A stretch of 64,000 nt of DNA from Pseudonocardiaceae bacterium (lineage in GTDB: Bacteria; Actinomycetota; Actinomycetes; Mycobacteriales; Pseudonocardiaceae): the NCBI GenBank assembly GCA_009377865.1, contig WHTH01000004.1, forward strand, positions 1 to 64,000, in the 5' to 3' direction. The notes under the pieces are model-generated. The model was given only the letters and a program-made list of their open reading frames with translations. It searched no databases and had not been told where the DNA came from. The first letter of the stretch is position 1. Each line of letters opens with the position of its first letter. Position numbers and translations under genes: made by a program. Positions 38,821 through 58,480 of this stretch are shown in pieces.

Positions 38821-39764
38821 GCCGCGTTCCCCGGTTGAGTATCGGCCTTCCCGTCTACAACGGTGAGCAGTACCTAGCCGAAGCACTCGACGCCCTCCTC
38901 GGCCAGAGCTACGAGGACTTCGAGCTGATCATCTCCGACAACGCCTCCACCGACGGCACCGCAGACATCTGCCGTCACTACGCGGCGCAGGACCCCCGGA
39001 TCCGCTACATCCGCCAGCCCCACAACATCGGTGCCGCCCCGAATCACAACGTCGTGTTCCGGGAGGCACGTGGCGAGCTGTTCAAGTGGGCGTCGCACGA
39101 CGACCTGTACGGCCGGGAGCTGCTGCGGCGCTGCGTCGAGGCGCTCGATGAGCACCCTCACGTCGTGCTCGCCCACGCCTGGCACGCCATCATCGACGGC
39201 GCGGACGCTGTCACCGAGAGGTTCGACTACCGGCTGGCCACGGACTCCCCGCATGCGCCGGAGCGCTTCCGGAGCCTGCTGTTCGCCCCAGGTGGCGACG
39301 ACTTCTACGGGGTCATCCGGGCCGAGGTGCTGCGCCGGATCGCGCCGCTCGACAGCTACCACCACGCGGACCGGACCATCGTCGCCGAGATCGCCCTGCA
39401 CGGCCCGTTCCACCAGGTACCCGAGCTGCTGTACTTCCGCCGCGACCACCCCACCCGGGCCGAGCGGGCGAACCCGACCAAGCGCACCCGCTGCGCCAAC
39501 CTGGACCCGCGCCGGGTCGACCGGCTGCGGCACCCGACCGTCCGGTTGCTCGCCGACTACGTCTGGGGATTCGTCGGGGTGGTCCGCCGCGCCCCGCTCT
39601 CGCCCACGGATCGGCGGCAGTGCTACCGCTACCTCACGCAGTGGCTGGCGAGCCGCGCCCTGCCCCAGCGGTTGCGCCCGGCCGCGGAACCGCCCGCCCC
39701 TGGCAGCGATGCGCTCACCGTCGCCGTCGACACGGTTGTCCCGGGGCGGAGGCCGACGTCGTGA
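38817..39764 (+). CDS. Family 2 glycosyltransferase
   Basis: 315 residues. GT-A fold: PRLSIGLPVYNGEQYLAEALDALLGQSYEDFELIISDNASTDGT, then KWASHDDLYG with the DD metal-binding pair. The C-terminal region has no membrane helix. It transfers a sugar to the growing repeat unit on the cytoplasmic face. Donor unknown. ATGA overlaps at both ends place it firmly in the operon. Confidence 0.9.
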   Translation: MSRVPRLSIGLPVYNGEQYLAEALDALLGQSYEDFELIISDNASTDGTADICRHYAAQDPRIRYIRQPHNIGAAPNHNVVFREARGELFKWASHDDLYGRELLRRCVEALDEHPHVVLAHAWHAIIDGADAVTERFDYRLATDSPHAPERFRSLLFAPGGDDFYGVIRAEVLRRIAPLDSYHHADRTIVAEIALHGPFHQVPELLYFRRDHPTRAERANPTKRTRCANLDPRRVDRLRHPTVRLLADYVWGFVGVVRRAPLSPTDRRQCYRYLTQWLASRALPQRLRPAAEPPAPGSDALTVAVDTVVPGRRPTS

Positions 39765-41056
39765 CCTCGCGCGGCATTGCCGGGAAACGAAGGCAGTCCA
39801 CGGCTACGGGTCCTCGGGTGGGGCTGTTCGGTCTGCTGGGCGCGGGCAATATCGGTAACGACGGGTCCCTCGAGGCTGTGCTCGCCTACCTCCGGGTCGA
39901 GCACCCCGACGCGACCCTGGGCTGCCTGTGTTCCGGGCCCGAGCAGGTGACAGCGCGATACGGGATCCCGGCCACACCACTGCACTGGTATGACGCGCAC
40001 GTGCGGGCGGCCTCGCGCGTGGCGACGGCTGCCGCGAAGGCGGTAGGGAAGGTCCTCGACGCTTACCGGACGCTGGCGTGGGTGCGTCGGCAGGACGTTG
40101 TGATCGTGCCCGGCGCGGGCGTTCTCGAGGCGACACTTCCGCTGCGACCGTGGGGATTCCCTTACGCCCTCTTCTTGGTCTGTGCATCCGGAAGGCTTCT
40201 CGGGACGAGGATCGCACTTCTCAACGTGGGAGCGGAGGTCATCGAGCAGCGTCCCACCCGGTGGCTGATCACCTCGGCGGCAAGGCTGGCCCACTACCGG
40301 TCCTTCCGCGACACCCACTCGAAGGGCGCGATGCGCAGGATGGGCGTCGACACGTCGGGGGATGAGGTCTACGCCGACCTGACGTTCGCTCTGCCGTCAC
40401 CTCCTGTCGCCCCGGGCGGTACGGGGACAGTCGGCGTCGGTGTCATGGCATGGCACGGTGGGAACGGCGACCGCCGGCGTGCCGACGAGATCCACACCGC
40501 ATACATGGCCGCAATGAAGCGCTTCGTCCGGTGGCTCGTCGACAACGGTCGCCGGGTCAGGCTGTTCACCGGCGATCAGCTCGACGAGGTCGTCGTGCGC
40601 GAGATCATCGCCGACCTGCGAGCACACCGGTCCGTCGTCGAGGTGTCGCGGGTCGTCGCCGAACAGACGTCCTCGTTGGACGACCTGATGCAGCAGATGG
40701 CGTCCGTCGACACCGTCGTCGCCACGCGTTACCACAACGTGGTGTGCGCGCTGCGGCTGGCGAAACCCACAGTGTCGATCAGCTACTCCACCAAGAGTGA
40801 CGCCCTCATGGCAGAGATGGGCCTGGCCGACTTCTGCCAGCCCGCCCGTTTCCCCGACGTCGAGCGCCTGATCGAGCAGTTCGCGGCACTCGAGAGCCGG
40901 AGCGGCCAGCTGCAGCGCACCATGGTGGAGCGGAACCGCGCGAACGCACGGCGGCTCGCGCACCAGTACGCGGTCCTGTCCGCCACGCTGTTCCCCAGGG
41001 CCGAGCCGCCACCGCTCGCTGTCAGGGCACGGACCGATTCCCAGGAGATCTCGTGA
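39761..41056 (+). CDS. Polysaccharide pyruvyl transferase family protein
   Basis: 431 residues from GTG 39761. GLFGLLGAGNIGNDGSLEAVL near the N-terminus, VIVPGAGVLEATLPLRPWGFPYALFL, and the C-terminal VDTVVATRYHNVVCALRLAKPTVSISYSTKSDALM are typical of the PS_pyruv_trans family (CsaB/WcaK). Family members add a ketal-linked pyruvate from PEP, giving the polymer a negative charge. Some act as other transferases. Confidence 0.85.
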   Translation: MTSRGIAGKRRQSTATGPRVGLFGLLGAGNIGNDGSLEAVLAYLRVEHPDATLGCLCSGPEQVTARYGIPATPLHWYDAHVRAASRVATAAAKAVGKVLDAYRTLAWVRRQDVVIVPGAGVLEATLPLRPWGFPYALFLVCASGRLLGTRIALLNVGAEVIEQRPTRWLITSAARLAHYRSFRDTHSKGAMRRMGVDTSGDEVYADLTFALPSPPVAPGGTGTVGVGVMAWHGGNGDRRRADEIHTAYMAAMKRFVRWLVDNGRRVRLFTGDQLDEVVVREIIADLRAHRSVVEVSRVVAEQTSSLDDLMQQMASVDTVVATRYHNVVCALRLAKPTVSISYSTKSDALMAEMGLADFCQPARFPDVERLIEQFAALESRSGQLQRTMVERNRANARRLAHQYAVLSATLFPRAEPPPLAVRARTDSQEIS

Positions 41057-41601
41057 AAGCCATACCGGTTCCCGGTATCGCCGGTGTGTTCCTCTTCGAA
41101 CCCACGCCGCACGTCGATGAGCGCGGGTTTTTCTGCCGCACCTTCGACCGGGATGTCGTCCGCTCCGTGGGCATCGACCCGGACGGGTTCGCTCAGGACA
41201 GCCTGTCCCGGTCCGCCAAGGGTGTCGTGCGGGGCATGCACGTGCGCTCGGGCGCCGGCGAGGCGAAGCTCGTGCGCTGTTCGTTCGGCGCGGTGTTCGA
41301 CGTCGTCGTGGACCTCCGTCCGGGTTCGCCCACGTACCGCAACCAGGAGTTCTTCGAGCTGTCCGGTGATACCCAGGTCTCGCTCTACGTGCCTGCCGGC
41401 TGCGCGCACGGGTTCCAGGCGCTGACCGATCCCGCCGACGTGTCCTACCGGATCGATCGGCCACACGACCCGACCGAGGACATCTCGATCGGTTTCGCCG
41501 ACCCCGAGTTGGCCATCCCCTGGCCGCTTCCTGTCACGCTGATGTCGTCGCGGGACAGGGAAGCGCCGTCACTCGCCGAGGCAACGAGGGCGCTGACATG
41601 A
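41053..41601 (+). CDS. dTDP-4-dehydrorhamnose 3,5-epimerase-like protein
   Basis: 182 residues of the RmlC cupin fold. PGVFLFEPTPHVDERGFFCRTF, FAQDSLSRSAKGVVRGMHVRS with the catalytic-type His, AVFDVVVDLRPGSPTYRN and SLYVPAGCAHGFQAL are visible. It would epimerise C3 and/or C5 of an NDP-4-keto sugar. There is no rmlA/B/D nearby, so its substrate is more likely the CDP-sugar of this pathway than dTDP-rhamnose. Starts at GTG 41053. Confidence 0.87.
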   Translation: MKAIPVPGIAGVFLFEPTPHVDERGFFCRTFDRDVVRSVGIDPDGFAQDSLSRSAKGVVRGMHVRSGAGEAKLVRCSFGAVFDVVVDLRPGSPTYRNQEFFELSGDTQVSLYVPAGCAHGFQALTDPADVSYRIDRPHDPTEDISIGFADPELAIPWPLPVTLMSSRDREAPSLAEATRALT

Positions 41602-42923
41602 CGATCACTGATCGGTTCCTGCCGCGGTCCGACGAGATGAACGCCCGGCTGCACCAGATGGTGCCGGGCGGCGCCCACACCTACACCAAAGGCGACGACC
41701 AGTATCCCGAGGGTCTTGCCCCGATGATCTCCCACGGGCGCGGCGCCCAGGTGTGGGACGTCGACGGCAACGAGTACATCGAGTACGGCTCCGGACTGCG
41801 TTCGGTCAGTCTCGGACACGCCCATCCGCGAGTGCTCGAGGCCGTGCGTCGCGAGCTCGACCGTGGTGCCAACTTCGTGCGGCCCAGCGTCGTCGAGGTC
41901 GAGGCGGCGCAACGCTTCCTGGAGACCGTGCCCACCGCCCAGATGGTGAAGTTCGCGAAGAACGGCTCGGACGTCACCACGGCCGCCGTGCGGCTGGCCC
42001 GAGCTGTCACGAATCGCCCGCTGATCGCCATCTGCGGTGACCAGCCGTTCTTCTCCACCGACGACTGGTTCATCGCGACCACACCGATATCGGCGGGCAT
42101 ACCCGAGCAAGTCGCCGACCTCACCGTGTCCTTCCCATATGGCGATCTCGACGCCACCGACGAGCTGCTCCGGCGCCACGACGGCCAGATCGCCTGTCTG
42201 ATCCTCGAGGCTGCTACCCAGCACGACCCGCCTCCCGGGTATCTGGCGGGGCTGCGCGACCTCGCGCACCGGTACGGCTGCATTCTCGTGTTCGACGAGA
42301 TGATCACAGGGTTCCGCTGGTCCGAGGCGGGCGCTCAGGGCCTGTACGACGTCGTCCCGGACCTGTCGACGTTCGGCAAGGCGCTGGGCAACGGCTTCGC
42401 CGTCTCGGCGCTGGCCGGGCGGCGGGATGTGATGGAGCGGGGCGGTCTGCACCACTCCCAGGAGCGGGTGTTCCTGCTTTCCACCACCCATGGGGCCGAG
42501 ACGCACTCGTTGGCGGCCGCTATGGCCGTGCTGAAGACGTATGTGGAGGAGGGGACCACCGCTCAGTTGCATGCACTCGGGGAGCGGCTGGCCGCCGGCG
42601 TTCGGGACGCTGCCGCTGGCATGGGTGTCGCCGACCACGTCGTCGTCCGCGGCCGTGCCAGCAACCTCGTCTTCGCCACCCTCGACGAGAACCGGCAGCC
42701 GTCGCAGGACTACCGGACACTTTTCCTGCGCCAGCTCATCGCCGGCGGGGTCCTGGCCCCGTCCTTCGTCGTCAGCAGTGCGCTCACCGAGGAGGACGTA
42801 GATCGGACCGTCGACGTCGTTGCGCAGGCCTGCGCCGTGTATCGCAAGGCGCTCGACGCCTCGGATCCAGCCGCGTGGATGGGTGGGCGGTCTGTCAAGC
42901 CCGTCTTCCGCCGCTTCGCCTGA
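41598..42923 (+). CDS. HemL-like class III aminotransferase
   Basis: 441 residues, PLP-dependent. HQMVPGGAHTYTKGDDQYP, WDVDGNEYIEYGSGLRSVSLGHAHP, MVKFAKNGSDVTTAAVRLAR, LVFDEMITGFRWSEAGAQG and the Schiff-base region STFGKALGNGFAVSAL show a complete glutamate-1-semialdehyde-aminomutase-like fold. In polysaccharide loci such enzymes aminate or isomerise sugar or C-chain intermediates; heme synthesis is unlikely here. Last gene of the plus-strand operon. Confidence 0.88.
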   Translation: MTITDRFLPRSDEMNARLHQMVPGGAHTYTKGDDQYPEGLAPMISHGRGAQVWDVDGNEYIEYGSGLRSVSLGHAHPRVLEAVRRELDRGANFVRPSVVEVEAAQRFLETVPTAQMVKFAKNGSDVTTAAVRLARAVTNRPLIAICGDQPFFSTDDWFIATTPISAGIPEQVADLTVSFPYGDLDATDELLRRHDGQIACLILEAATQHDPPPGYLAGLRDLAHRYGCILVFDEMITGFRWSEAGAQGLYDVVPDLSTFGKALGNGFAVSALAGRRDVMERGGLHHSQERVFLLSTTHGAETHSLAAAMAVLKTYVEEGTTAQLHALGERLAAGVRDAAAGMGVADHVVVRGRASNLVFATLDENRQPSQDYRTLFLRQLIAGGVLAPSFVVSSALTEEDVDRTVDVVAQACAVYRKALDASDPAAWMGGRSVKPVFRRFA

Positions 42924-46311: not shown

Positions 46312-46563
46312 ATGCGTCTGCAATCAACGAATATCTCGGCACGCACGATCGGTGACGAGACTATCGTCCTCAGCTTGCCGTCCTCGAGCTACTTCACGAT
46401 CACCGGCGTCGGAACCAGAGTGTTCGAGCTGCTGGCCGAGGACACGTCACTCGACGAGCTCGTGGAAACCATCGTCGACGAGTATGAGGTCGACCCCGCG
46501 ACCGCGCGGCACGACATCGAAGCCTTTATCGATCGGCTCCGCGCCGTCGAGCTCATCCACTGA
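46312..46563 (+). CDS. Lasso peptide B1 protein (PqqD-like RiPP recognition element)
   Basis: 83 residues from ATG 46312 with GGAAGGTG upstream. The PqqD fold is recognisable: ETIVLSLPSSSYFTITGVGTRVFELLAEDTSLDELVETIVDEYEV, then DIEAFIDRLRAVELI. In lasso pathways B1 binds the precursor leader, chiefly its YxxP segment, and presents it to the B2 peptidase. Both partners are present: B2 immediately downstream and a precursor with YEAP. Confidence 0.9.
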   Translation: MRLQSTNISARTIGDETIVLSLPSSSYFTITGVGTRVFELLAEDTSLDELVETIVDEYEVDPATARHDIEAFIDRLRAVELIH

Positions 46564-47010
46564 TTGTCCAGCCGGGAACGGGACGCGGTGAGAATGCGCA
46601 GATGGGCGCTCGGTGCCTGGGAGATCCTCCGGGCGCTCGGGCCGATGGTCGTGATCGAGATCAGCTTGCGGACCAGCGACCTGCCGACGACGTGCCGGCG
46701 GCTGGGGGTGGCCTACGACCTCGACAGTCCGGCGGCGCCGGGAGCTGTACTCGCGGTGCTGCCGCGGCGGCGCCGGCGGGTTGTCCTCGCCTCGCTCGCC
46801 GTCGTCTCCCGCTGGCCGGCCGGGGACACCTGCCTGCGGCGGTGCCTGCTGATCGGCCACCGGCTGCGCGGACTAAAGCCGGTGCTGCGGATCGGAGTGC
46901 GACGGGACACCGCCGGTGCGTTCTCGGCGCACTCCTGGCTCGAGTTCGCCGGCAGAACCCTCGATCCCGCGGCCTTCGAGTTCGCTCCTCTCGGCTCGAC
47001 CGATCAATGA
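46564..47010 (+). CDS. Lasso peptide B2 leader peptidase (transglutaminase-like)
   Basis: 148 residues if TTG 46564 is used, directly after the B1 stop; GTG 46588 gives 140. The catalytic Cys lies in GDTCLRRCLLIGHRLRGL (Cys90), His in SAHSWLEFAG (His123) and Asp in RTLDP (Asp134), the Cys-His-Asp triad of the B2 family. It cleaves the leader after the conserved T-x dipeptide of the precursor. Coupled to B1 and followed within 8 bases by the kinase. Confidence 0.9.
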   Translation: MSSRERDAVRMRRWALGAWEILRALGPMVVIEISLRTSDLPTTCRRLGVAYDLDSPAAPGAVLAVLPRRRRRVVLASLAVVSRWPAGDTCLRRCLLIGHRLRGLKPVLRIGVRRDTAGAFSAHSWLEFAGRTLDPAAFEFAPLGSTDQ

Positions 47011-47017
47011 GGTGGTC

Positions 47018-47962
47018 ATGCAGCACTGGTACCGCGCCCACGGCCTGGTCATCTGCAGTGAGGTCGAACTCGCGATGCAGCCAGGCATGCCGACCTCCGG
47101 GCCACCTGACCTGGTGCTGCGCCGAGGGGCCACGCGGGCGATACCGTCCGACCATCCGCCGGGTGGCCGGCTGGCCGGGTTGAGCAAGCCCGACGGCACG
47201 CTCCGTTACAGCCTCTGCCGGGACCGGGACCGGGTGGTTCTGCGCTATCCCGGCCTGTGCGACTTCGTCGGCGACCGGACCCTGGGCGACGTCACCGTTG
47301 ACCTGCATCCTGGGGCCGATCCGGGTTTGATCGCGGTGCTGGCGGCCGGTGCCCTATTGGCGGTGCATCTCAGGCTTCGCGGGGAGCTCGTCTTGCACGC
47401 CAGCGCCGTGCAGCTGGGCGACGGGGCGCTGGCGTTCGTCGGGGCGTCCGGGATGGGCAAGTCGACGCTCGCGGCGTTGCTGTGCACGAGCGGCCACCGG
47501 CTGGTGACCGACGACGTGTTGCGCGTGGACCTGACGGACGGCGTGGTCGTCCACCCGGGCAGCACGGAGAGCCGGTTGCGCGCGAACGCGCACCAGCTCG
47601 CAGACACCGCTCCCGCCGGTGCCGTTCGCCCCACCGCTGACGGGCGGCTCGCGCTGCGGGCACCTGCCCATGCCGGCGAGCCGTTGCCGCTCGTCGCCTG
47701 CCTGGTGCCGCTGCCCAGCCGCAATGCGGTGGAGGTCTCGGTGCAGCGGCTGGCCGGGCCCCGGGCACTGTTGCGGATGCTCCAGTTCCCGCGGGTCGTC
47801 GGCTGGATCGAGCCGGCATCGACGGCCCGTGAGTTCCAGGCGCTCGCGGACCTGGTCGGACAGGTGCCGATCTTCGAGGCGAGGGTTCCGTGGGGCCCGC
47901 CGTTCTGGCCGGACGTCGTGCCCGGGCTGCTGGACGGCGTTGCGGTCTCGGCTCAGCGGTAG
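47018..47962 (+). CDS. HprK-like serine kinase of the lasso pathway
   Basis: 314 residues from ATG 47018. The HPr-kinase-type P-loop is GASGMGKST (142-150), preceded by LVLHASAVQ with the conserved HAS, followed by TDD (164-166) in GHRLVTDDVLRVD. Long N- and C-terminal regions are variable. In paeninodin-type clusters such kinases (PadeK, ThcoK, PsmK) phosphorylate the C-terminal Ser of the precursor. The precursor here ends in Ser, which fits. The 3' end overlaps the convergent exporter gene by 10 bases. Confidence 0.88.
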   Translation: MQHWYRAHGLVICSEVELAMQPGMPTSGPPDLVLRRGATRAIPSDHPPGGRLAGLSKPDGTLRYSLCRDRDRVVLRYPGLCDFVGDRTLGDVTVDLHPGADPGLIAVLAAGALLAVHLRLRGELVLHASAVQLGDGALAFVGASGMGKSTLAALLCTSGHRLVTDDVLRVDLTDGVVVHPGSTESRLRANAHQLADTAPAGAVRPTADGRLALRAPAHAGEPLPLVACLVPLPSRNAVEVSVQRLAGPRALLRMLQFPRVVGWIEPASTAREFQALADLVGQVPIFEARVPWGPPFWPDVVPGLLDGVAVSAQR

Positions 47963-49731
47963 GCCGACGACTGCAGGCTGTAAAGCTCCGCGTACTGCCC
48001 GGCCCTGGCGATCAGCTCGTCGTGTGTGCCGCACTCCACGATGCGCCCGCCGTCCAGGACGTAGATCCGATCGGCGAGCCGGGTGCTGGAGAACCGGTGC
48101 GAGATCAGCAGCGCGGCGCGGCCGCCCAGCACGGCGCGGACATCGGCGAACAGTTCGTACTCGGACCGAGGATCGAGGGCGGCGGTCGGCTCATCGAGCA
48201 CGACCAGCGGCGTGTCCCGGTACAGCGTGCGGGCGAGCGCCACCCGCTGCCACTGGCCGCCCGAGAGGTCCGTCCCCTCGTCAAGGTCCCGGCCTAGCAT
48301 GGTGTCCAGGCCGTGGGGTAGCTCGCGCACCGCGCCGAGGACGTTGGCCCGCCGGGCTGCCTCGGTGACCGCGTCCTCGCTCGCTGACCGGTCCCCGTCG
48401 CTGATCACGATGTTGTCGCGCAGCGTCATCTGGTAGCGGACGAAGTCCTGGAAGATCACGCTGACGGACGCCCGGATGTCGGGTGCCGGGACGGCGGCGC
48501 CGTCCCAGTGTCGTGTCCCCGTGGTGGGCTCGTACAGCCCGGCCACGATCTTGGCGAGGGTCGTCTTGCCGGACCCGTTCTCACCCACCAGCGCGACGAC
48601 CTCACCGGCGCCGATCTCGATGTCGACGGAGTTGAGCGCGGGCCGATCCTGCTGAGGATAGCTGAAGCTCACCTCGTGCAGCGCGATCCGCTCGGTGAGC
48701 GGATGCTTGCGGCCCGGTGGCGGCGCCGCGGGCCCGGAGGCCACGAAGCGGTGCAGGTCCGCGAGGAACGGGGCCGACTCGATCAGGCCGCTCACCGAGG
48801 TGAACAGCGTGTTGAGCTGCCCGGACAGCAGCCGCACCGCGATCGCCGCCGCACCGGCCTCGGCCAGGTCGATCCGGCCCTGGTTCACCAGCTCTACGAT
48901 CGCCAGCAGCGCACCAGTGAGCGCCACGGCGACGCCGACGGTCGTCAGGACGGCGATCAGCTGGCGGCGGCGGACCTGCGCGCGCATCTCCGAGGTGACC
49001 TCGCCGTTGAGGGTCTGGTGCCGTTCCCGGAGCGGGCGGGTCGAGTCGAACGCGCGGAGTTCGGCTGCGAAGGGCCGCTGGGTGAGCAGTTGCCGGAGGT
49101 AGGTCCGGCGGCGGAACGACGCGGTCAGCCGCTGCGCGAAGGCGAACTCGGTGCGGCTCGCCCACCTGGCCAGCAGCACCGCCGGCAGCCCCGCGGCCAG
49201 CAGGATCGGCACCAGCAGCGGCTCGACCCCGACCAGCACGGCGGACATGGTGACCACCCCGAGCAGGCTGCCGGTGAGACCGAGCAGTGCCGTGGTGACC
49301 ATGAACGGGCGGGTCACCGCGTTCTGCTGCACCCGCTCGAGGGCGGTGGCGAAGCCGGACGACTCGTAGGTGAACAGATCGGCGCGCGCCGTCGTGTCGA
49401 GCACCCGGTCCCAGACCCGCTGCGACACGCGCTCGCCGAGGAGCCGGTGCTGCTGGGTCTGCAGCGCGCCGACCGAACCCGAGAGCGCAGTCATGAACGC
49501 CAACGCGAGCAGCGCGGGCGTCAGGCCGATGGCGGCCTGCTCAGGCTCCAGGAGTGCATCGAAGGTGAGCATTGCGGCGGCGACGACGCCCAGCGCCGCG
49601 GTCGCGCCGACGATCTGGAAGGCCGCCGCGACGATCGTGCCCAGCCGGTCGGCCCGCGCAACCTCCCGTGCGGCGCCCGCGATCAAACGAGGCGTGGCCG
49701 CGGAGGCCTTCGCGAGTCGGGTCAGGCGCAT
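47953..49731 (-). CDS. ABC exporter of the lasso peptide
   Basis: 592 residues from ATG 49731. The N-terminal ~330 residues form a six-helix transmembrane domain, and the C-terminal ATPase has GENGSGKTT, FQDFVRYQMTLRDNI, LSGGQWQRVALART and VVLDEPTAALD. It is a half-transporter without a C39 peptidase domain, as in other lasso clusters where B2 removes the leader. It would export the mature peptide and give self-immunity. Divergent from the precursor genes. Confidence 0.9.
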   Translation of the reverse strand: MRLTRLAKASAATPRLIAGAAREVARADRLGTIVAAAFQIVGATAALGVVAAAMLTFDALLEPEQAAIGLTPALLALAFMTALSGSVGALQTQQHRLLGERVSQRVWDRVLDTTARADLFTYESSGFATALERVQQNAVTRPFMVTTALLGLTGSLLGVVTMSAVLVGVEPLLVPILLAAGLPAVLLARWASRTEFAFAQRLTASFRRRTYLRQLLTQRPFAAELRAFDSTRPLRERHQTLNGEVTSEMRAQVRRRQLIAVLTTVGVAVALTGALLAIVELVNQGRIDLAEAGAAAIAVRLLSGQLNTLFTSVSGLIESAPFLADLHRFVASGPAAPPPGRKHPLTERIALHEVSFSYPQQDRPALNSVDIEIGAGEVVALVGENGSGKTTLAKIVAGLYEPTTGTRHWDGAAVPAPDIRASVSVIFQDFVRYQMTLRDNIVISDGDRSASEDAVTEAARRANVLGAVRELPHGLDTMLGRDLDEGTDLSGGQWQRVALARTLYRDTPLVVLDEPTAALDPRSEYELFADVRAVLGGRAALLISHRFSSTRLADRIYVLDGGRIVECGTHDELIARAGQYAELYSLQSSAYR

Positions 49732-49870
49732 CGGCAAATAGTAGCCCGTGCCAGCAGCGTAAACGGCCGACTACAGATCGCGATGCACTGTAACGGATTC
49801 CCCAGCCAACCCGACCTCCCTCCTAAGGGGCTCCGGCCCGGAATTCTGCGGAACACGGAGGGAGTGAGAG

Positions 49871-49990
49871 ATGAAGAGGAAGTATGCCCCCACCGTGCAG
49901 GACCGGGTCGCTTCACGAACTGACCCCGAGGTAGGCGAGCCAGTCGGCTCGACGCCGAATTTCAATGCAGGCGCGCTCCTCGGTGTCTGA
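49871..49990 (+). CDS. Short peptide gene upstream of the lasso precursor
   Basis: 39 codons: MKRKYAPTVQDRVASRTDP, ending NFNAGALLGV before TGA 49988. GGAGGGAG lies 6 bases before the ATG, a near-ideal ribosome-binding site. The start resembles the precursor leader (Tyr at position 5, then AP and a hydrophobic residue two positions on), and the end shares GAL with the precursor core. No Asp/Glu lies 7-9 residues after any likely T-x cleavage site, so a normal lasso ring cannot form. It could be a diverged second precursor, a leader peptide or noise. Confidence 0.5.
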   Translation: MKRKYAPTVQDRVASRTDPEVGEPVGSTPNFNAGALLGV

Positions 49991-50081
49991 CGTTCTCGTG
50001 ACCGGCAGGGTCGCGTCGGATTCCGACAGCCGAGATCACGAGTACCCGTCTGCCCCTACGACGCGCGTGAGGAGGTGTACC

Positions 50082-50216
50082 ATGCGCCAGCCCTACGAGG
50101 CTCCGGAAATCACCCTGTTGGGATCGGTCACGGAGCTCACTCAACAGGACAGCTTCGCCCTCAGTTTCGATGGCGCGCTGTTCCGCGGCGACGACCCCGA
50201 TCCAAGCTACTCCTGA
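50082..50216 (+). CDS. Lasso peptide precursor
   Basis: 44 residues from ATG 50082 with AGGAGG 6 bases upstream. Leader residues 1-21 hold Tyr5, Pro8, Ile10, Gly14 and Thr20, which become Y-17, P-14, I-12, G-8 and T-2 if cleavage follows Gln21, exactly the canonical lasso pattern. The 23-residue core would start QDSFALSFD, with Asp9 as ring acceptor, a 9-member macrolactam. The tail contains RGDD and ends PDPSYS; its C-terminal Ser is the expected kinase target. The acidic, Ser-ending tail recalls paeninodin. Gln at core position 1 is unusual. Confidence 0.92.
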   Translation: MRQPYEAPEITLLGSVTELTQQDSFALSFDGALFRGDDPDPSYS

Positions 50217-50225
50217 GGTAGTCAG

Positions 50226-50261
50226 CAACGGGGTCGGCGGGCCAACTCGCTGACCCCGTTG
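50226..50261 (+). terminator. Hairpin between precursor and cyclase genes
   Basis: CAACGGGGTC (50226-50235) and GACCCCGTTG (50252-50261) pair over 10 bases with a 16-base loop, 10 bases after the precursor stop. It may act as an attenuator or mRNA stabiliser giving more precursor than enzyme transcript, a common RiPP arrangement. Confidence 0.65.
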
Positions 50262-50298
50262 GCCCGTTCCTGTCGTGACTTCAGCCTAGCCATAGGGG

Positions 50299-51516
50299 AT
50301 GTGCGTGGCTCTGTATCAGATGGATCCATTGGAGATTGCCGGGGGCTGGATCCACGGCTACGAAGTGGACCCGCTTCCCCCGGGGCCGCACGCGGACCCT
50401 CGGCAGGCGCTCGACGAGGTCTTGCTCCGGTACCTGGTCCGGTCGCCCTGCCTCATCGCCTTCTCCGGTGGCAGGGACTCCTCCGCTCTTCTCGCCGTGG
50501 CCGTCGCACTGGCCCGCCTGGAGGGCCTGCCACTGCCGATCCCGATCACGCTCACCTACCCTGACGCGACGGACACCGACGAGGCGGATTGGCAGGCCCA
50601 CGTGCTCGATCACTTGGGCATCACCGAGCGTGTCGTGCTCGTGGTGCACGACGAGCACGACATCGTCGGACCGATCGCCACCCCGCTGCTGCACCGCCAC
50701 GGCCTCATGTGGCCACCGAATGTGGCTCCGACCTGGCGAATGATGGACCGGGCGCGCGGCGGGGTGCTGCTCACCGGTGAGAGCGGGGACGAGGTCTTCG
50801 GCATCAAGCGGATCACCCCGCTGATCAAGGTGCTGAAGGCCCGGGGTAGGGCAGATCGTCGGCTCTACCTGCACGCCGCCCGAGCGCTCGCGCCGGCCTG
50901 GTTCCGTCGACGGGTGGCCCGTCGGCAGCGGTACCGGCAGCCCTGGCTGCGGGAGCACGTCGAAACGCTGCTGGCCCGCCGGTATTCAGAAGATGTCGCG
51001 GCCTACGCGCTGCACGCAGGTCGGCACGCCTGGCAGTTCGTGGCCCGGCGTGGTACGCGGCGGGGGTACGAGACGTTTCGCACGCTCGGATCGGAGATCG
51101 GTGTCGAGTACGGTCATCCCTTCCAGGACGCCGGTTTCGTCGGCGCGGTGGCGGCCGCGGCCGGATTCTGGGGCTGGACCGGGCGGACCACGACCATGCG
51201 TTACTTGTTCGACGATGTGCTGCCGCGCGCGGTCCTCGAGCGGCGCACCAAGGCGACCTTCAACACGGCAGTCTTCAGAGAGCACACTCGGGATTTCGCG
51301 CGGCAGTGGAACGGTGACGGTGTTGACACGGAGCTGGTCGACCCGGATGTGTTGCGGGAGAATTGGCTCTCGGACTTCCCGCACGCGCCCTCGACGGTCC
51401 TGCTGCAGCAGGCGTGGCTGGCCACGACATGCATCAGCCACCGGTCGCCGGTATCTCGGGGAAGTACGGACCCCGGCCGCTACGCTCGTGGTGGACATAG
51501 ACGGCCCCTTGAGTGA
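50299..51516 (+). CDS. Lasso cyclase-like asparagine synthetase homologue lacking the glutaminase domain
   Basis: 405 residues from ATG 50299. The PP-loop ATP site SGGRDSSALL begins at residue 56; GVLLTGESGDEVFG and GVEYGHPFQDAGFVGAVAAAAGF match the synthetase domain of AsnB/McjC proteins, which activates the ring Asp by adenylation. Canonical lasso C proteins have ~580-650 residues with an N-terminal glutaminase-like domain; only ~50 residues remain here. Position right after the precursor argues that this is the working ring-forming enzyme. Confidence 0.87.
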   Translation: MCVALYQMDPLEIAGGWIHGYEVDPLPPGPHADPRQALDEVLLRYLVRSPCLIAFSGGRDSSALLAVAVALARLEGLPLPIPITLTYPDATDTDEADWQAHVLDHLGITERVVLVVHDEHDIVGPIATPLLHRHGLMWPPNVAPTWRMMDRARGGVLLTGESGDEVFGIKRITPLIKVLKARGRADRRLYLHAARALAPAWFRRRVARRQRYRQPWLREHVETLLARRYSEDVAAYALHAGRHAWQFVARRGTRRGYETFRTLGSEIGVEYGHPFQDAGFVGAVAAAAGFWGWTGRTTTMRYLFDDVLPRAVLERRTKATFNTAVFREHTRDFARQWNGDGVDTELVDPDVLRENWLSDFPHAPSTVLLQQAWLATTCISHRSPVSRGSTDPGRYARGGHRRPLE

Positions 51517-53289: not shown

Positions 53290-54441
53290 CTATCGCGCTG
53301 CGGCGCGTCCTCGCCGCACCTCCCGGAGCGCGAAACGGAACCGGGCCAGTGCCGAGGCGTGCCGCCCTGCGGTGTACTGCCGGTCGGGAAGGACCAGTGC
53401 GCGCAGGTAGGCCGCCTTGGCCCGCAGGCCCGGTATGACGGGCAACGTCGCGAGTGCCTGCGCGGCAAACGTCTTGTCGTACCGCGTGTGCAGCGCCAGC
53501 CTGGCCAGGTCTCGCCGGCTCGGGACATGATGCTGCGCCCACAGCGCGAGCTCACCGGCGGCGGGAATGCCCAGCAAGCGGTGGGCATCGGCAACCGCCG
53601 CGGCCACGACCGCCTCGACGCCCCAGGCCGAGGCGAGCTGGATGAGGGTCTCGCCGTCCTGGCCGGGGTCGGGAAGCATTTCTGCGACGTCGCGCAAGGA
53701 CGCCAGGCGCAGCGGCCAGTCGCCCAGCGCAGCGTGATAGCACGCGTGCATGAGCCTGTTCGGGCGCGAGAGAGCACGCAGCGATCGTCCCCCGACGGTG
53801 AATTCCTGCCCACAGTCCCAGAGCCCGTCGATGTCGACGAGGACCCCCCAGGGCCCGAGCACGAAGGTCCGATGTAGATCCAGTTCGAATCCCGCGGGGC
53901 TGCGCAGCGTGGTCCCCTTGTCGAACCGGCGGTCGAAGCCGGGCCGTGGCTCCGCCAGGGTGCGCACGAAGCCGGCCGCCACGAGGACCCGGACGGCGCG
54001 GTCGATGTCCACCGGGCGGACGAGGATGTCGAGGTCGATGAACGACCGCAGCGCCGGTTGCTGGTAGTCCAGATGTGCGACTGCGCTGCCTTTCAGCACC
54101 CTGGTCTCGATGGCGGACTCCGCCAGCAGGTCGACGACGGCGATCAACTCCCGCTCGAGGGAGAGGGCGCGGACCATGCCTGACCGATGGGCGGATCGGG
54201 CTTGCTGCGCCTGAGTTTCGGTGACTGGCAGCGCACCGCCGTCGATCGTTGCCCGCAACAAGCCGGTCACGCGATGGGCGCGTGCTGCTGGGAGGACCGA
54301 CGCCCAGGCGCCGTCATCGAGCGGCTCCCGGGGGAAGGCCCGGCTCGCACCGGGAAGTCCGAAGCCGGCCACCGCGAGAAGTGGCGGCGGGTAGCTGTCC
54401 GCACCGCACAGGCTGCGCGTCATCGTGGCCGGCCCCTTCAT
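53290..54441 (-). CDS. Nucleotidyltransferase family protein of the lasso-associated type
   Basis: 383 residues from ATG 54441, overlapping the glycosyltransferase stop as ATGA. The active-site pattern of the NTP_transf_5 family is visible: LKGSAVAHLDY, RSFIDLDILVRPVDIDRAVRVL with the Asp-x-Asp pair, and FELDLHRTF. Such proteins recur in lasso clusters that contain an HprK-like kinase (for example pseudomycoidin, where PsmN is tied to sugar attachment). Here it is transcribed with glycan genes, so it could serve either the peptide or the polysaccharide. Confidence 0.8.
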   Translation of the reverse strand: MKGPATMTRSLCGADSYPPPLLAVAGFGLPGASRAFPREPLDDGAWASVLPAARAHRVTGLLRATIDGGALPVTETQAQQARSAHRSGMVRALSLERELIAVVDLLAESAIETRVLKGSAVAHLDYQQPALRSFIDLDILVRPVDIDRAVRVLVAAGFVRTLAEPRPGFDRRFDKGTTLRSPAGFELDLHRTFVLGPWGVLVDIDGLWDCGQEFTVGGRSLRALSRPNRLMHACYHAALGDWPLRLASLRDVAEMLPDPGQDGETLIQLASAWGVEAVVAAAVADAHRLLGIPAAGELALWAQHHVPSRRDLARLALHTRYDKTFAAQALATLPVIPGLRAKAAYLRALVLPDRQYTAGRHASALARFRFALREVRRGRAAAR

Positions 54442-55640
54442 AGTGCCTCGCGTGAGCCGGACCCCGCGATGGCCGCCTCGTAGCCCGCGACCAGGCGTTC
54501 CAGCCCGACCGACGGGGTGAAGCCCTGCTCATACCGGCGCCGGGCGGCCGCGCCCATCGTCCGGTTCTCCTCGGGAGTGGCCACGACGCGCCGCAGGCAA
54601 TCGGCGAGCGAGCCCGGGTCGTCCGGTCGGTGCAGCAGGCCGGTCGCCCCGTCCTCGACGAGCTCGACGAACGCGCCATGGGAGGCGGCCACCGCGGGAA
54701 CGCCGGCCGCCATCGCCTCCACGATCACCAGGCCGAACGTCTCCAACCAGGTCGACGGCGCCACCACGGCCGCCGCACCGGCCACCAGGTTTGCGCACTC
54801 GGTCTTCGACTGCAGACCGAGGTACCGGACGTCGTCGCGGTCCCGCGCCCACCGCGACACCTCCTCCTGCAGCGGTCCGGTACCCGCAAGGACCAGCGGT
54901 ACGCCGATGCCACCGCGTGCGGCGATCGCGTCCCATGCCGACATGAGCAGCCGGATGCCCTTCTCGGTGGTCAGCCGCCCGAGGTAGAGCACGTGCTCGC
55001 CCGGACCGTCGCGACGAGCACCCGGGTCGGCCACGAAGTTGTGCTTGACGGCCAACCGCTCGGCCGGCATGCCTGCCTGGATCAGGATCTTGCGCTGGGC
55101 GTCGGAGATGCAGAAGAACCGCTCCACGCCCGACCACCAGCGGCGACGGTTGGCGACCATGTTCACCGCTATCGGGACGGTGGCCAGGCGTGAGCCCCGG
55201 TAGCACCCGTGACGCAGCGCGGGTAGCGGGAGCCGGCGGGTGCAGTCCGTGCACACGTGCCCGTCGCGGTAGAGGGTGCCGGGCGGGCACACCATCATGT
55301 AGTTGTGCAAGGTTGCGACAGCGGGGACCCCCACGACGGCGCACGACGTCACGACCGACGGGGACAGTAGCGGGAACGTGTTGTGGATGTGCACCACATC
55401 GGGCCGCTCCACCCGCAGGCGGGCCGCGAGTTCGGCGCGCACCGCCGCGTTCCACGGAACGCGGAAGGGGACAGCAGCCTTCTCGAGCACAGACATGGCG
55501 GCGATGTCGTCGCTGCGTCGCTCGAAGGTGCTGACGTGGTGCCCGGCCTCGGCGAGAAGAGTTCGTTCCTGGTCGACCACCCGGTCCTCGCCGCTCGGCT
55601 GCTCGGACCGATACCTGTTGTAGACCACCAGCACCTTCAT
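54438..55640 (-). CDS. Family 4 glycosyltransferase
   Basis: 400 residues from ATG 55640. The N-domain has YRSEQPSGEDRVVDQE and VVHIHNTFPLLSPSVV; a Cys-rich insert CPPGTLYRDGHVCTDC is common in this subgroup. The C-domain has LYLGRLTTEKGIRLLMSAW, GLQSKTECANLVAGAAAVVAPSTWLETFGLVIVEAMAAGVPAVA with the E-x7-E motif. It should transfer a hexose to the lipid-linked unit. Overlaps its neighbours at both ends. Confidence 0.9.
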   Translation of the reverse strand: MKVLVVYNRYRSEQPSGEDRVVDQERTLLAEAGHHVSTFERRSDDIAAMSVLEKAAVPFRVPWNAAVRAELAARLRVERPDVVHIHNTFPLLSPSVVTSCAVVGVPAVATLHNYMMVCPPGTLYRDGHVCTDCTRRLPLPALRHGCYRGSRLATVPIAVNMVANRRRWWSGVERFFCISDAQRKILIQAGMPAERLAVKHNFVADPGARRDGPGEHVLYLGRLTTEKGIRLLMSAWDAIAARGGIGVPLVLAGTGPLQEEVSRWARDRDDVRYLGLQSKTECANLVAGAAAVVAPSTWLETFGLVIVEAMAAGVPAVAASHGAFVELVEDGATGLLHRPDDPGSLADCLRRVVATPEENRTMGAAARRRYEQGFTPSVGLERLVAGYEAAIAGSGSREAL

Positions 55641-56899
55641 CGGTCGGTCGCTCCGCTCCCGGGATGGATTCGCGTGCCCTGGATCAGCAGCGAAGTCGCC
55701 ACGGCAAGGTGCAGCAGGTAGGGAGACGCGTCGCCGAGACCTACCTCGGTGTACGAAGCGACGGTGCAGTAGACGATCAGGAAGATGGCGCAGGCGCGGG
55801 CCGGGGACGGGCGTCGTAGCGCCGCGGTGATGATCAGGACGCCGAGAACGGCGACCACGAGCAGGATTCCCGCCCAGCCCTGCTCGTGGTAGATCGACAG
55901 CCAGCTGCTGTCGATCGGGAGGCCGCCGAACGACTTGTCCGTCAGACCCATCCCGAGCAGCTGCTCGCGCACGGTTCGCTCCTCCGCGAGCAGGTCGTCC
56001 CACACCTTCTGCCGACCGGTGAGGTTGGCCAGCTCGTCGGCATCCTGCCCGCGCCGCAGCCAGGTCAGGATGATCTGGCTGAACGCCAAGGTGACCAGGA
56101 CCCCGAGTCCGGCGGCTGCCGCGAGGGCGCGCCGGGCACGCGGGTCGGTGAAGGCCATGCTGCAGCCGGCCACGGCCAACGCGGCGACGAAGCCGAGCAG
56201 CGCGGTGCGGGTGTGGGTGAGCAGCAGGAGAGCGACCGCAGGAACGGCGACGACGGCAGCGCTGCGGCCGTCGATGGTCCGCGTGATCCAGAGCACGATG
56301 GCCAGGCCGGCCGCGACCGCACAGTACTGGCCGACCTGAGGGGCCGGGATCGGCCAGATCACTCCGACCAGTCGGCCCCCCGGGCCGGAGAGCGCACTCC
56401 CCGGTGAGATCGCGAAACCGGCGAGCACCGTGAGGAGCACCCCGCCCAGCGCGTACACATGGAAGCGGACGAACCGCAGATCGCCGGCCCGCCACCATCG
56501 AGTCAGCAGCCACAACGTCACGACGAACAGCCCCAACCGCGCGGCGCGGAACAGCGAACCGAACCCTGAGTCGAGTTGCATGCTCGACATGACGCTGACG
56601 ACCGTCAGCAAGCTCAGCAGCAGCAGGTACGCACTCGGTCGCACCCGAACGCGGGGGTTGAGCAGCAGCGCCAGGGCGAACGCGACCAGCAGCGCGCCCA
56701 TCGTGACCAGCTGCGTGACCAGCCGCGGAATCGGGACGATGGTCTCCGCACCCTGGGTACCGAGCGTGTTGACGAGCAACAGACCCCAAGCCACCCCGAC
56801 CAGCCTCGGGATGCGGACGTCGCCCACGCCGGCGGCCGGCTCGACCAACGGTGGTGTCGTCGTTGTGGTGCTCCCGCGGGCACGACGCGGGTCAGTCAC
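55637..56899 (-). CDS. O-antigen ligase/polymerase-like membrane protein (Wzy)
   Basis: 420 residues from GTG 56899, preferred for GGGAGG 4 bases upstream. About ten transmembrane helices, a large loop after LSGPGGRLVGVIWP, and the Wzy_C-type region LGMGLTDKSFGGLPIDSSWLSIYHEQGWAGILLVV. Such proteins polymerise or ligate lipid-linked repeat units outside the membrane. Together with the flippase at 37489 this gives a Wzx/Wzy pathway split across the lasso block. Confidence 0.85.
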   Translation of the reverse strand: MTDPRRARGSTTTTTPPLVEPAAGVGDVRIPRLVGVAWGLLLVNTLGTQGAETIVPIPRLVTQLVTMGALLVAFALALLLNPRVRVRPSAYLLLLSLLTVVSVMSSMQLDSGFGSLFRAARLGLFVVTLWLLTRWWRAGDLRFVRFHVYALGGVLLTVLAGFAISPGSALSGPGGRLVGVIWPIPAPQVGQYCAVAAGLAIVLWITRTIDGRSAAVVAVPAVALLLLTHTRTALLGFVAALAVAGCSMAFTDPRARRALAAAAGLGVLVTLAFSQIILTWLRRGQDADELANLTGRQKVWDDLLAEERTVREQLLGMGLTDKSFGGLPIDSSWLSIYHEQGWAGILLVVAVLGVLIITAALRRPSPARACAIFLIVYCTVASYTEVGLGDASPYLLHLAVATSLLIQGTRIHPGSGATDR

Positions 56900-56917
56900 C
56901 GTGCCTCCCACGTGGCA

Positions 56918-58480
56918 TCAGCAGTCCCCTGGGTCTGCGACGCCGTCGAAGGTGCTGCCCGGGTCCTGGTTGTACGGCTGGGCCTGCCATTGGGCGGTCT
57001 CGATCGGTTCGCTGGTGTCGTAGGGCAGGAAGGTCCAGGGTCCGGTGTAGGTGTTGTCGTACCACCGGTTGTCCTGGCGGAAGGTGATCGCCTCCTGGAC
57101 GACGGACTCCTGGTAGGGGGACCAGTCCGGATACGTGCCATAGTTCGACAGCAGCGCCATGCGGGCGGCGAATCCCTCGGCACAACCGACGACCGACGGG
57201 TCGTAGCTGAACGTGTTGTCGTGGACGTCGATTCGCTGGGTCTTCCACCGGCAGTCGTCGTAGCGGGGTGGGCTGGCGATACCGGGCTGGGTGCACTCGG
57301 ACGGGGAGGACACGAGCGGGGTGCAGGTTCCGGTCGAGGTGTTCGAGGGACTGTTGCAGAACCGGTCGGCGTTCTCCCACGCCGTGATACCCGACCAGTT
57401 GTCCTCGAGGACGTTGTCGTATATCTCGATCCTGTCGGTGCGGGCCGGGAGGCGTGGTTCACCGCCGGCTTCACTCAGGTAGATCGTCCCGATCGGGAAG
57501 CTGTCCCCGCTGTCGGCGAACTCCTTGCCCGCCACCCAGGTGTTCTGACGAATGGTGTTGTCGCGAATGATCACGTTGTAGCCGGTCTCATAGAAGATCG
57601 CTTCGGAGTCGTTGCCCTCGATCAGGTTGCCCTCGATCAGGAAGTCGTTGTTGTTGGTATCCGCCCACAGTCCGGCGCCCCGGTTGTCGTGGACCCAGTT
57701 GTCGCGCACGTCTGCGCCGTCGACGGACCAGAACTTCACGCCTCCGCTGCAGCCGCACCCCTCGACCTTGCTCTCCCAGTCCTCGGTGTTGTTGCCGACG
57801 ATCTCGTTGCCCTCGACCACGAGGTCGACGATTCCGTTGCCGGCCTGGTAGGCGTTCATTCCGTACTGGCCGTTGTTGCGCAGGCAATTGCCGCGAACCT
57901 GCTGGCTGGCTCCCGCCATGAGCCCGGCGCCGCGGTTGTCCTCGATGGTGTTGTGCTCGATCACCCACCCGTTGCCGGAGTTGTGGTTGACGACCCCCTG
58001 ATCCTGGGGCGGAACGAACCCCCGGACCGTGAGGTGGCGGATCGTCACGTTCTCGGCATCGGTGGTGAAGGCGTACTGGTTCTTGTCGCGCCCATCCACG
58101 ATCGCACCTGGCGCGCCGACGTAGGTGTTGCCGTCTTTGGCCTCGACCTGCGCGAACTGGCCGTCGCTGAGGGTGTGCGTGCCGGAGGCCAGCCAGAATG
58201 TCGTCCCGGCTGGATTGCCGTCGTTCTTGTCCACGAGGTCGCCCTGGACAGCCGGATCGATGGTGATCGCGTCCGGCGGTGGTGCGGCCGGCCCGGGGAC
58301 CGTGTTGTCGCACACCGCGTCCACCTCGCCGGTGAGTGCCGGTGCCGGGGCCGACTCCGAGCCGGATCCGGCGGACGCCCCCGGATCCGGTGTGGTCGTG
58401 CAGCCCGCGAGGACGATGCCCAGCACCAGCAGAGGTGCCAGCAAACTCAGGCCACGCAGCGGCACCGTGCGGTTGACCAT
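56918..58480 (-). CDS. Right-handed parallel beta-helix lipoprotein
   Basis: 520 residues from ATG 58480. A lipoprotein signal peptide ends in LVLGIVLAGC, followed by a Gly/Ser/Ala linker. From about residue 75 the sequence repeats in ~22-residue turns rich in Asn, Asp and Gly (TIRHLTVRGF, VIEHNTIEDNRGAGL, VVEGNEIVGNN, IRDNTIRQNTW, IYDNVLEDNWSG), a pectate-lyase-like solenoid. A Cys-rich loop (KVEGCGCSGGVKFWS) and other cysteines may form disulfides. Probably a cell-surface polysaccharide-binding, -lyase or -epimerase protein acting on the polymer of this locus. Confidence 0.85.
   Translation of the reverse strand: MVNRTVPLRGLSLLAPLLVLGIVLAGCTTTPDPGASAGSGSESAPAPALTGEVDAVCDNTVPGPAAPPPDAITIDPAVQGDLVDKNDGNPAGTTFWLASGTHTLSDGQFAQVEAKDGNTYVGAPGAIVDGRDKNQYAFTTDAENVTIRHLTVRGFVPPQDQGVVNHNSGNGWVIEHNTIEDNRGAGLMAGASQQVRGNCLRNNGQYGMNAYQAGNGIVDLVVEGNEIVGNNTEDWESKVEGCGCSGGVKFWSVDGADVRDNWVHDNRGAGLWADTNNNDFLIEGNLIEGNDSEAIFYETGYNVIIRDNTIRQNTWVAGKEFADSGDSFPIGTIYLSEAGGEPRLPARTDRIEIYDNVLEDNWSGITAWENADRFCNSPSNTSTGTCTPLVSSPSECTQPGIASPPRYDDCRWKTQRIDVHDNTFSYDPSVVGCAEGFAARMALLSNYGTYPDWSPYQESVVQEAITFRQDNRWYDNTYTGPWTFLPYDTSEPIETAQWQAQPYNQDPGSTFDGVADPGDC

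Follow-up and report, generated by a model that had tools for sequence, protein, structure and literature searches.

The gene cluster described here is a variant of the paeninodin/pseudomycoidin kind, likened to these systems by gene content, motif and C-terminal Ser, and it probably encodes a lasso peptide pathway with a minimal cyclase. The window, i.e. the whole stretch of 64,000 nucleotides that was analysed, covers positions 1 to 64,000 (forward strand) of contig WHTH01000004.1 from Pseudonocardiaceae bacterium GCA_009377865.1. The genes for B1, B2, an HprK-like kinase, an ABC exporter, the precursor and the cyclase are all open frames within 46312–51516 and match their families, the kinase below cutoff (Table 1), which bears out the earlier note's proposal that an actinobacterium has a complete lasso cluster with a kinase. 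The same note had described a compact cluster of 5.2 kb; these six genes are there, but the cluster goes on past 51516 as far as 54441, where a PF14907 nucleotidyltransferase (N) is encoded. Nor is the cluster a singleton. Among 390 Pseudonocardiaceae genomes surveyed, 24 carry a strong cyclase match, and 23 family clusters were read, namely that of the window and 22 others.

Table 1 Features of the lasso cluster and its flanks in the window.
Feature	Position	Strand	Evidence and remarks
Upstream exopolysaccharide-type genes: epimerase, C-methyltransferase, GT2, pyruvyl transferase, class III aminotransferase	35031..42923	+	Pfam
B1, PqqD-like leader-binding protein (RRE)	46312..46563	+	PF05402 60.4 bits, cutoff 23.4
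B2, transglutaminase-like leader peptidase	46564..47010	+	TTG start; NF033537 47.8 bits, cutoff 33
HprK-like precursor kinase	47018..47962	+	PF07475 E 1.7e-6, 28.1 bits, below cutoff 33.3
ABC exporter (D)	47953..49737	-	PF00005 104.9 bits; opposite strand
AGGAGG, likely precursor ribosome-binding site	50070..50075	+	Sequence; 6 nt before ATG
Precursor A (type A2)	50082..50216	+	NF033521 lasso leader 22.2 bits, cutoff 19
Minimal lasso cyclase C	50299..51516	+	PF00733 72.4 bits, cutoff 21; 405 aa, Asn-synthetase domain only
PF14907 nucleotidyltransferase (N), proposed phospho-Ser modifier	53290..54441	-	PF14907 125.6 bits, cutoff 31.2
Downstream exopolysaccharide-type genes: GT4, beta-helix protein, heparinase II/III, Gfo/Idh fusion, Asn synthase	54438..63972	-	Pfam

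Precursor and leader-processing proteins

Precursor A2 consists of a leader of 21 and a core of 23 amino acids (QDSFALSFDGALFRGDDPDPSYS). The leader fits the rule Y-17/P-14/G-8/T-2 exactly, as claimed before, and the precursor also exceeds the cutoff of the NCBI lasso-leader model. The exact pattern was found in one short open reading frame of the 64 kb, and 60 simulated first-order Markov sequences of the same length as the window did not contain it; a chance match was thus rejected. A ring between Gln1 and Asp9 is predicted for the core, with Ser23 as the end of the tail, and the paeninodin core likewise has about 23 residues. Both marks of a lasso precursor, the YxxP...G.....T leader and an Asp or Glu at core position 7–9, are therefore present. 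Asp9 and the C-terminal Ser are kept in 33/33 intact family precursors, the cores being otherwise variable, which agrees with the earlier statement that the core ends in Ser as in paeninodin-type precursors. Residue 1 of the window core is Gln, as it is in the relative L070. Gln is unusual at this position of a lasso core and can form pyroglutamate, which counts against the lasso reading. A scan of positions 49700–50320 for promoters and terminators found none.

In the PDB, a B1 profile built from 11 homologues matched the lasso proteins TbiB1 (5v1u, E 5.7e-16), 9x90 and TfuB1 (6jx3), and B1 scored under the cutoffs of both lasso PqqD models (50.6 of 80 and 45 of 70 bits). The B2 residues Cys90, His123 and Asp134, pointed out in the earlier note, are invariant in 14/14 aligned rows; a PDB search with the B2 profile gave no match. 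Taken together, NF033537, PF05402 and the TbiB1/TfuB1 matches identify the RRE-type B1 and the transglutaminase-like protease B2 of a lasso system. The HPr-rel-A system also combines an HprK-like kinase with a PqqD-like protein. Membership in it was rejected, because both window proteins score below cutoff (kinase, TIGR04352, 40.6 of 200 bits; B1, TIGR04353, 27 of 35 bits).

Compared with a sister species, pN/pS is 0.25–0.40 for six genes and 0.64 for the precursor, from which the cluster genes look to be under selection. A pseudogene cluster was rejected, since all frames are open and these values are low enough to look selected.

Nucleotidyltransferase and polysaccharide locus

We take PsmN of the pseudomycoidin cluster to be a member of the PF14907 family, and by family and cluster content N would, in our reading, be the counterpart of PsmN and BsfN. 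The structure model of N bears a weak resemblance to ANT(2'')-Ia. The psm cluster comes from another phylum than the window cluster and has a different gene order and different cores. Common to both, according to the excerpted reports, are the kinase and the nucleotidyltransferase, the mark of the pseudomycoidin type, and in the psm system of Bacillus pseudomycoides the phosphorylated C-terminal Ser bears one or more hexoses (PMC9266682, PMC8498205). Because N belongs to the cluster, as in the pseudomycoidin and bsf systems, the product may carry a hexose in addition to the phosphate. The mass given in the earlier note, core minus water plus 80 Da, is therefore one among the expected masses and not the sole one; calculated for the window core, the neutral monoisotopic masses are 2488.08 for the lasso, 2568.05 with HPO3 added, and 2730.10 and 2892.15 with one and two hexoses as well. 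The note's new phosphorylated lasso peptide from an actinobacterium is upheld with regard to the cluster and the C-terminal Ser, though phosphate may not be the only modification.

It is possible, though in our view the less probable assignment, that N serves the polysaccharide locus instead of the peptide, in which case the product would be phosphorylated only, as held before. In L085, N is kept in the locus with no convincing remains of other lasso genes, N of the window adjoins the GT4 gene, and we know of no product of this family. Against this alternative, N occurs in 20 of the 23 clusters that were read in the family: homologues of 55–80% identity were found in 19 of the 22 others, and the remaining three (L063, L066, L073) are stretches ending nearby. 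Moreover, of the 20 fetched locus versions lacking a complete cassette, only three (L078, L085, L096) have N at full or nearly full length, and in two of these three B1 and B2 persist as well. Homologues of the exporter are present in all 22 other clusters (71–86% identical in 21, 50% in L063).

Glycan genes on both flanks, as seen in the earlier note, are confirmed, and the flanks form a locus common to relatives. The upstream aminotransferase lies in the fetched stretch of 20/22 other family clusters, the downstream beta-helix protein in that of 16/22 and GT4 in that of 10/22. Matches to the locus heparinase (identity of at least 65%) occur in 22/24 carriers compared with 90/366 other family genomes, and in 21 carriers heparinase and cyclase are on the same contig. 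The cluster is a frequently lost cassette of a conserved exopolysaccharide-type locus. Since 90 of the 112 heparinase-bearing family genomes are without a strong cyclase match, the polymer can do without the peptide, and the idea that the cassette is obligatory for the polysaccharide was rejected.

This independence of the polymer, together with the general point that gene co-location is not co-function, makes it very unlikely that the phosphorylated tail of the lasso is bound to the polysaccharide. In such a scheme, the kinase and the PF14907 enzyme would convert the C-terminal Ser to a tail activated by phosphate or by a nucleotide, and this tail would be linked to the glycan by a phosphodiester to give a lasso-glycan conjugate at the surface; in two-module species, one set of B1, B2, kinase and exporter would deliver two lassos via two minimal cyclases. 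The scheme draws on the position of the cluster within a polysaccharide-type locus and on the nucleotidyltransferase-fold enzyme beside the kinase. It also draws on rumen lasso clusters of Butyrivibrio, which share HPr kinase and nucleotidyltransferase and hold glycosyltransferases (GT2, EpsH); these are in silico predictions from Firmicutes, and the excerpted account describes no two-module arrangement or minimal cyclase (PMC7533575).

Minimal cyclase and two modules

Cyclase C is without the N-terminal amidotransferase-like region of about 200 residues, and the family profile begins at residue 198 of AsnB 1ct9. The pade cyclase of the paeninodin cluster is full length. The PP-loop SGGxDS of an Asn-synthetase-like cyclase (S56, G57, G58, D60, S61) is invariant in 21/21 C/C' rows, as are G160 and G163, and K318 is found in 19/21. 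The curated lasso-cyclase models gave 20.5 of 525 (NF033535) and 32.3 of 300 (NF033561), with the alignments starting no earlier than model positions 261 and 218, respectively. We take the short cyclase as a variant because these models do not define the class. An in-frame stop lies one codon upstream of the ATG, and in 22/22 family clusters the C match starts 26–153 bases past the precursor stop. The missing region therefore has no room, and a hidden upstream N-terminal domain was rejected. The predicted structure is mediocre (pLDDT 72); its Foldseek matches to TsnB9, beta-lactam synthetase, human asparagine synthetase and carbapenam synthetase (TM-score 0.34–0.49 by query length) support the superfamily of the modelled cyclase only. 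A PDB search with the cyclase alone gave no match, and a literature search for lasso, glutamine amidotransferase and cyclase found nothing.

Relatives carry one, two or decayed copies of the gene set (decayed in L037, L078, L087 and L096). These decayed copies, the last ~28 residues of the window cyclase, which align poorly with relatives, and the adjoining frame-split regulator gene could suggest that the short cyclase is degenerate or a helper, that no lasso forms and that the cluster is a decaying remnant. We consider this very unlikely in view of the seven invariant cyclase residues, a cyclase pN/pS of 0.32 and the lack of space for a full form.

Judged by sequence, two modules share B1, B2, kinase and exporter in this family: A2 with C, as in the window, and A1 with C'. 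C and C' form two distinct clades with good support. In 22/22 clusters, A2 and C are found together. For A1 and C', the two-by-two table over 23 clusters is 10/1/1/11, with one exception each way (Fisher p = 1.1e-4, shared ancestry ignored). L064 (G407) has an A1-like precursor and no C', and L069 (G299) has C' with a frame-broken A1; both count against this reading of the modules. Weak C' matches (30–32%) in L085 and L088 overlap other genes and are taken as chance. A literature search for lasso clusters with two cyclases found no paper.

Predicted phosphorylation, proposed pathway and meaning

In the kinase, H127, the residues G142/S144/G145/G147/K148/S149 and D165-D166 are invariant in 17/17 rows, so that the His-Lys-Asp-Asp set of paeninodin-type kinases (H127, K148, D165, D166) is complete, and the C-terminal Ser of the paeninodin type accompanies it in all 33 precursors. 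Kinase family, catalytic motif and invariant Ser suggest phosphorylation of this Ser. That the kinase targets another residue, e.g. the ring Ser3 present in the window core, as the excerpted report describes for BsfK and BsfA (PMC10368454), is most unlikely and was rejected, since the family cores do not conserve Ser at position 3 but have it as the last residue in 33/33 precursors, and BsfA itself ends in Asp.

From gene content, catalytic residues, leader rule and the conserved Asp9 and Ser, all established in the sequences, we infer the following chemical steps and their probable order, as well as the biological role and any connection with the polysaccharide. B1 would bind the YxxP leader, and the kinase would phosphorylate Ser23 of the linear precursor. 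B2 would then cut after Gln-1, and cyclase C would use ATP to activate the side chain of Asp9 and couple this to the Gln1 amine, so that a 9-residue ring forms around the tail. The PF14907 enzyme would place a hexose on the phosphate, or else a nucleotide or a sugar phosphate, and finally the ABC protein would export the product at a cell surface where the locus polysaccharide would also be made.

As far as the excerpted sources describe them, kinase-bearing lasso clusters come from Firmicutes and Proteobacteria, including Bradymonas. The paeninodin cluster (pade, Paenibacillus dendritiformis) shares B1, B2 and C and likewise has an HprK-like kinase, by which the C-terminal Ser is phosphorylated; it belongs to Bacillota and, unlike the window family, has no two-module organisation in the excerpted descriptions (PMC9266682, PMC8498205). 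The bsf cluster of Bradymonas sediminis has A, B1, B2, C, D, kinase and nucleotidyltransferase in common with the window, but differs, according to the excerpted report, by phosphate on Ser3, a C-terminal Asp in the precursor and Ile at -2 (PMC10368454). Our findings extend these known clusters by a conserved family from actinobacteria that has both kinase and nucleotidyltransferase. Lacking the N-terminal region, a cyclase of ~380 residues would, if active, be a smaller starting point in vitro and would reveal what that region is dispensable for. With its two modules, the family offers a natural experiment on precursor choice by a lasso cyclase, as two precursors use a single leader-binding protein and protease, yet separate cyclases. 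The fixed site in a polysaccharide-type locus is a lead on the role of phosphorylated lassos.

Gene content of the lasso cluster

Features in and around the lasso cluster (positions in the window)
Feature	Position	Strand	Basis
MazE/AbrB-like antitoxin and PIN-domain protein	42987-43639	+	PF04014, PF01850
2'-5' RNA ligase superfamily protein	43670-44401	-	PF13563
Second Xre-type regulator	44406-45713	-	
B1	46312-46563	+	PF05402, 60.4 bits (cutoff 23.4)
B2	46564-47010	+	NF033537, 47.8 bits (cutoff 33)
HprK-like kinase	47018-47962	+	
ABC exporter	47953-49737	-	
Precursor (A2)	50082-50216	+	NF033521 lasso leader, 22.2 bits (cutoff 19)
Cyclase (C)	50299-51516	+	PF00733, 72.4 bits (cutoff 21)
Frame-split Xre-type regulator	51476-52580	+	
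Nucleotidyltransferase	53290-54441	-	PF14907, 125.6 bits
Asn synthase, 399 aa	62773-63972	-	PF00733, 297 bits

The cluster in the window is a lasso cluster of the paeninodin/pseudomycoidin kind. All six lasso genes named in an earlier note from the sequence alone are present with open frames, and that reading was right in kind but incomplete, as the cluster is longer than first reported and extends beyond the cyclase to a nucleotidyltransferase. The exact leader pattern proposed there (Y-17/P-14/G-8/T-2) is borne out, occurring once in 64 kb and in 0/60 first-order Markov simulations; AGGAGG stands before the precursor start. Five of seven tested precursors of relatives also exceed the NF033521 cutoff, with those of L029 and L066 below it.

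B1 scores under the cutoffs of two lasso PqqD models (50.6 and 45 bits against 80 and 70). A profile of 11 B1 homologues matched four PDB sequences with E ≤ 0.1, namely TbiB1 (E 5.7e-16), the lasso PqqD chaperone 9x90, the PqqD family protein 9x8z and TfuB1. The B2 triad Cys90-His123-Asp134, also recognized earlier, is conserved in all 14 aligned rows. The kinase stays below the cutoffs of PF07475 (28.1 vs 33.3) and TIGR04352 (40.6 vs 200); its residues H127, K148, S149, D165 and D166 are conserved in 17/17 aligned rows, and according to the review PMC9266682 kinases acting on lasso precursors have the motif His-Lys-Asp-Asp. The exporter is encoded on the strand opposite to the other five genes. 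All 23 Pseudonocardiaceae clusters examined contain B1, B2, kinase and exporter; in two of them (L066, L071) B1 and exporter lie several kilobases away from B2 and kinase.

The nucleotidyltransferase was found in 20/23 family clusters, the remaining three (L063, L066, L073) being stretches that end nearby. Its predicted model (pLDDT 73.8) has a weak likeness to ANT(2'')-Ia (E 2.7e-4) and a still weaker one to FKRP (E 0.033). As in the window, kinase and nucleotidyltransferase stand together in the psm and bsf clusters (PMC9266682, PMC10368454, PMC8498205). In psm, the presence of one or two hexoses at the phosphorylated Ser is connected with PsmN, and whether PsmN is itself the hexose transferase is left undecided (PMC9266682, PMC8498205). 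Between cyclase and nucleotidyltransferase lies an Xre-type regulator gene split over two frames and overlapping the cyclase gene end, for which no convincing counterpart was found in the loci of 14 relatives. The second one, on the other flank, shares 31-33% identity with it in the matching parts.

The source genome comprises 4.0 Mb in 121 contigs, the one with the window having a length of 119,584, and the sister species G001 is the sole genome listed from the same genus. Against G001, pN/pS is 0.38 for B1, 0.34 for B2, 0.40 for the kinase, 0.27 for the exporter, 0.32 for the cyclase and 0.25 for the nucleotidyltransferase, compared with 0.64 for the precursor; the genes look maintained and the core freer to vary.

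Two precursor/cyclase modules and a short cyclase

The cyclase search (E ≤ 0.001) was positive in 37/390 family genomes and in 17/150 near genomes. Carriers were defined by a strong match (E < 1e-50; 24/390), and 23 of the 24 clusters were examined (window, L024-L030, L032, L063-L076), G410 with its 3.8 kb contig being left out. The core search gave 42 rows. Five of these were discarded as chance matches, one in another frame of the window and the others in L030, L067, L070 and L075. We also discarded four precursors whose clusters do not belong to the family (L031, L033, L035, L036); their last residues are S, P, D and N, respectively, and that of L031 has no acidic residue at core positions 7-9. 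All 33 retained precursors (22 A2, 11 A1) carry Asp9 and a final Ser, neither of which the search required. Position 1 of the A2 cores is Ala in 15, Ser, Gly or Gln in two each and Val in one, the Gln1 cores being those of the window and L070. L063 (2376-7404) has a different gene order and a 40-residue core ending in GVVIVS, unusually long for a lasso core.

Cyclase C occurs in 22 clusters and the A2 precursor in the same 22. A second cyclase, C', sits between B1 and B2 in 11/11 cases. Its partner A1 accompanies it in ten clusters, nine of which also hold A2 and C and one (L032) only A1 and C'; L069 has C' with a frame-broken A1 that has lost P-14, L064 lacks C' and holds a precursor resembling A1, and 11 clusters have neither (Fisher p 1.1e-4 for the 10/1/1/11 table of 23 clusters, a test that ignores shared ancestry). 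A 40-protein tree places the 11 C' rows and the 22 C rows in separate clades, with support of 100/100 and 100/99, respectively. This pairing and the separate clades suggest that each module has its dedicated cyclase, with B1, B2, kinase and exporter common to both.

Lasso-cyclase models score far under cutoff for C, curated ones aligning only from model positions 261/668 and 218/561, and the first residue of asparagine synthetase B (1ct9) that the cyclase family profile covers is 198. A stop codon stands one codon ahead of the cyclase ATG. Since only 26-153 bases separate precursor stop and C match (22/22 family clusters) and 11-113 bases B1 and C' match (11/11), the ~200 absent N-terminal residues would not fit in any member. 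In the alignment, S56, G57, G58, D60, S61, G160 and G163 are invariant (21/21 rows), and K318 is kept in 19/21. All 18 structural matches of the predicted cyclase model (pLDDT 72.0) with E ≤ 0.001 belong to the Asn-synthetase superfamily (TM-scores 0.34-0.49), and they confirm superfamily membership only.

The glycan locus and probable loss of the cassette

The flanking genes encode a Bac_transf-family sugar transferase, C-methyltransferases, an epimerase, a GT2, a polysaccharide pyruvyl transferase and a class III aminotransferase, then a GT4, a beta-helix protein, a heparinase II/III, a dehydrogenase fusion and an Asn synthase. In stretches of ~20 kb or shorter around the 22 other family clusters, homologues were found of the aminotransferase (20/22), the beta-helix protein (16/22) and GT4 (10/22); the epimerase gave one 37% piece only, and no counterpart of the Asn synthase was found. 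The latter, the second Asn synthase of the region, might act as an amidotransferase in making the polysaccharide. Between aminotransferase and lasso cluster lie the PF04014 and PF01850 genes, likely a toxin-antitoxin pair, with the RNA ligase superfamily gene nearby.

Heparinase (identity ≥ 65%) is present in 112/390 family genomes, 22/24 carriers vs 90/366 others (Fisher p 4e-11, ancestry ignored). In the two negative carriers, G312 and G410, the contig that holds the cyclase is 8.2 and 3.8 kb long, respectively. Heparinase and cyclase are 5.2-18.2 kb apart in 21 carriers and on different contigs in G181. Among loci fetched from 20 of the 90 heparinase-positive non-carriers, a sample that is not random, five keep pieces of the cassette: L078 (B1, B2, kinase, cyclase fragments, nucleotidyltransferase), L096 (7059-9580; B1, B2, kinase and nucleotidyltransferase, with no precursor, cyclase or exporter found), L085 (nucleotidyltransferase only), L087 (35 residues of the nucleotidyltransferase) and L083 (the exporter). 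The other 15 showed no trusted piece, L092 and L093 spanning the locus only partly. In L037, additional to the 20, B1 and the nucleotidyltransferase remain along with 60 residues of the cyclase. The simplest reading is an old cassette at this location that has often been lost.

Relatives in the phylum and the predicted product

In a wider survey of 326 genomes from the phylum, the cyclase profile (E 1e-30) matched three, namely our own, G563 with two copies and G598, and the kinase profile (E 1e-10) 22, our own included. G563, from a distant family, encodes at ~4633-15891 of L110 two candidate precursors, two short cyclases, B1, B2, a kinase and a weak nucleotidyltransferase match; one candidate core has a final Ser, the other two Cys and a final Gly. 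Candidate precursors accompany kinase, B1 and B2 in G459, G455 and G533. Given these four gene sets, kinase-bearing lasso-like clusters are found in several families of the phylum.

The literature describes kinase-bearing lasso clusters in Firmicutes and Proteobacteria (PMC8498205), ruminal Firmicutes (PMC7533575) and Bradymonas (PMC10368454). Glycosyltransferases beside them are already known: Butyrivibrio clusters with HPr kinase and nucleotidyltransferase also hold GT2 and EpsH (PMC7533575). Among the papers listed by the literature searches, which included PMC13352647 and covered few subscription journals, there was no kinase-bearing case from actinobacteria, no cluster with two cyclases and no minimal cyclase; the RODEO survey may list such clusters.

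We infer both the biological role of the cluster in the window and the chemistry of its product, which would most likely be a lasso peptide with a 9-residue ring and a phosphate on the last Ser, perhaps also bearing a hexose on that phosphate.
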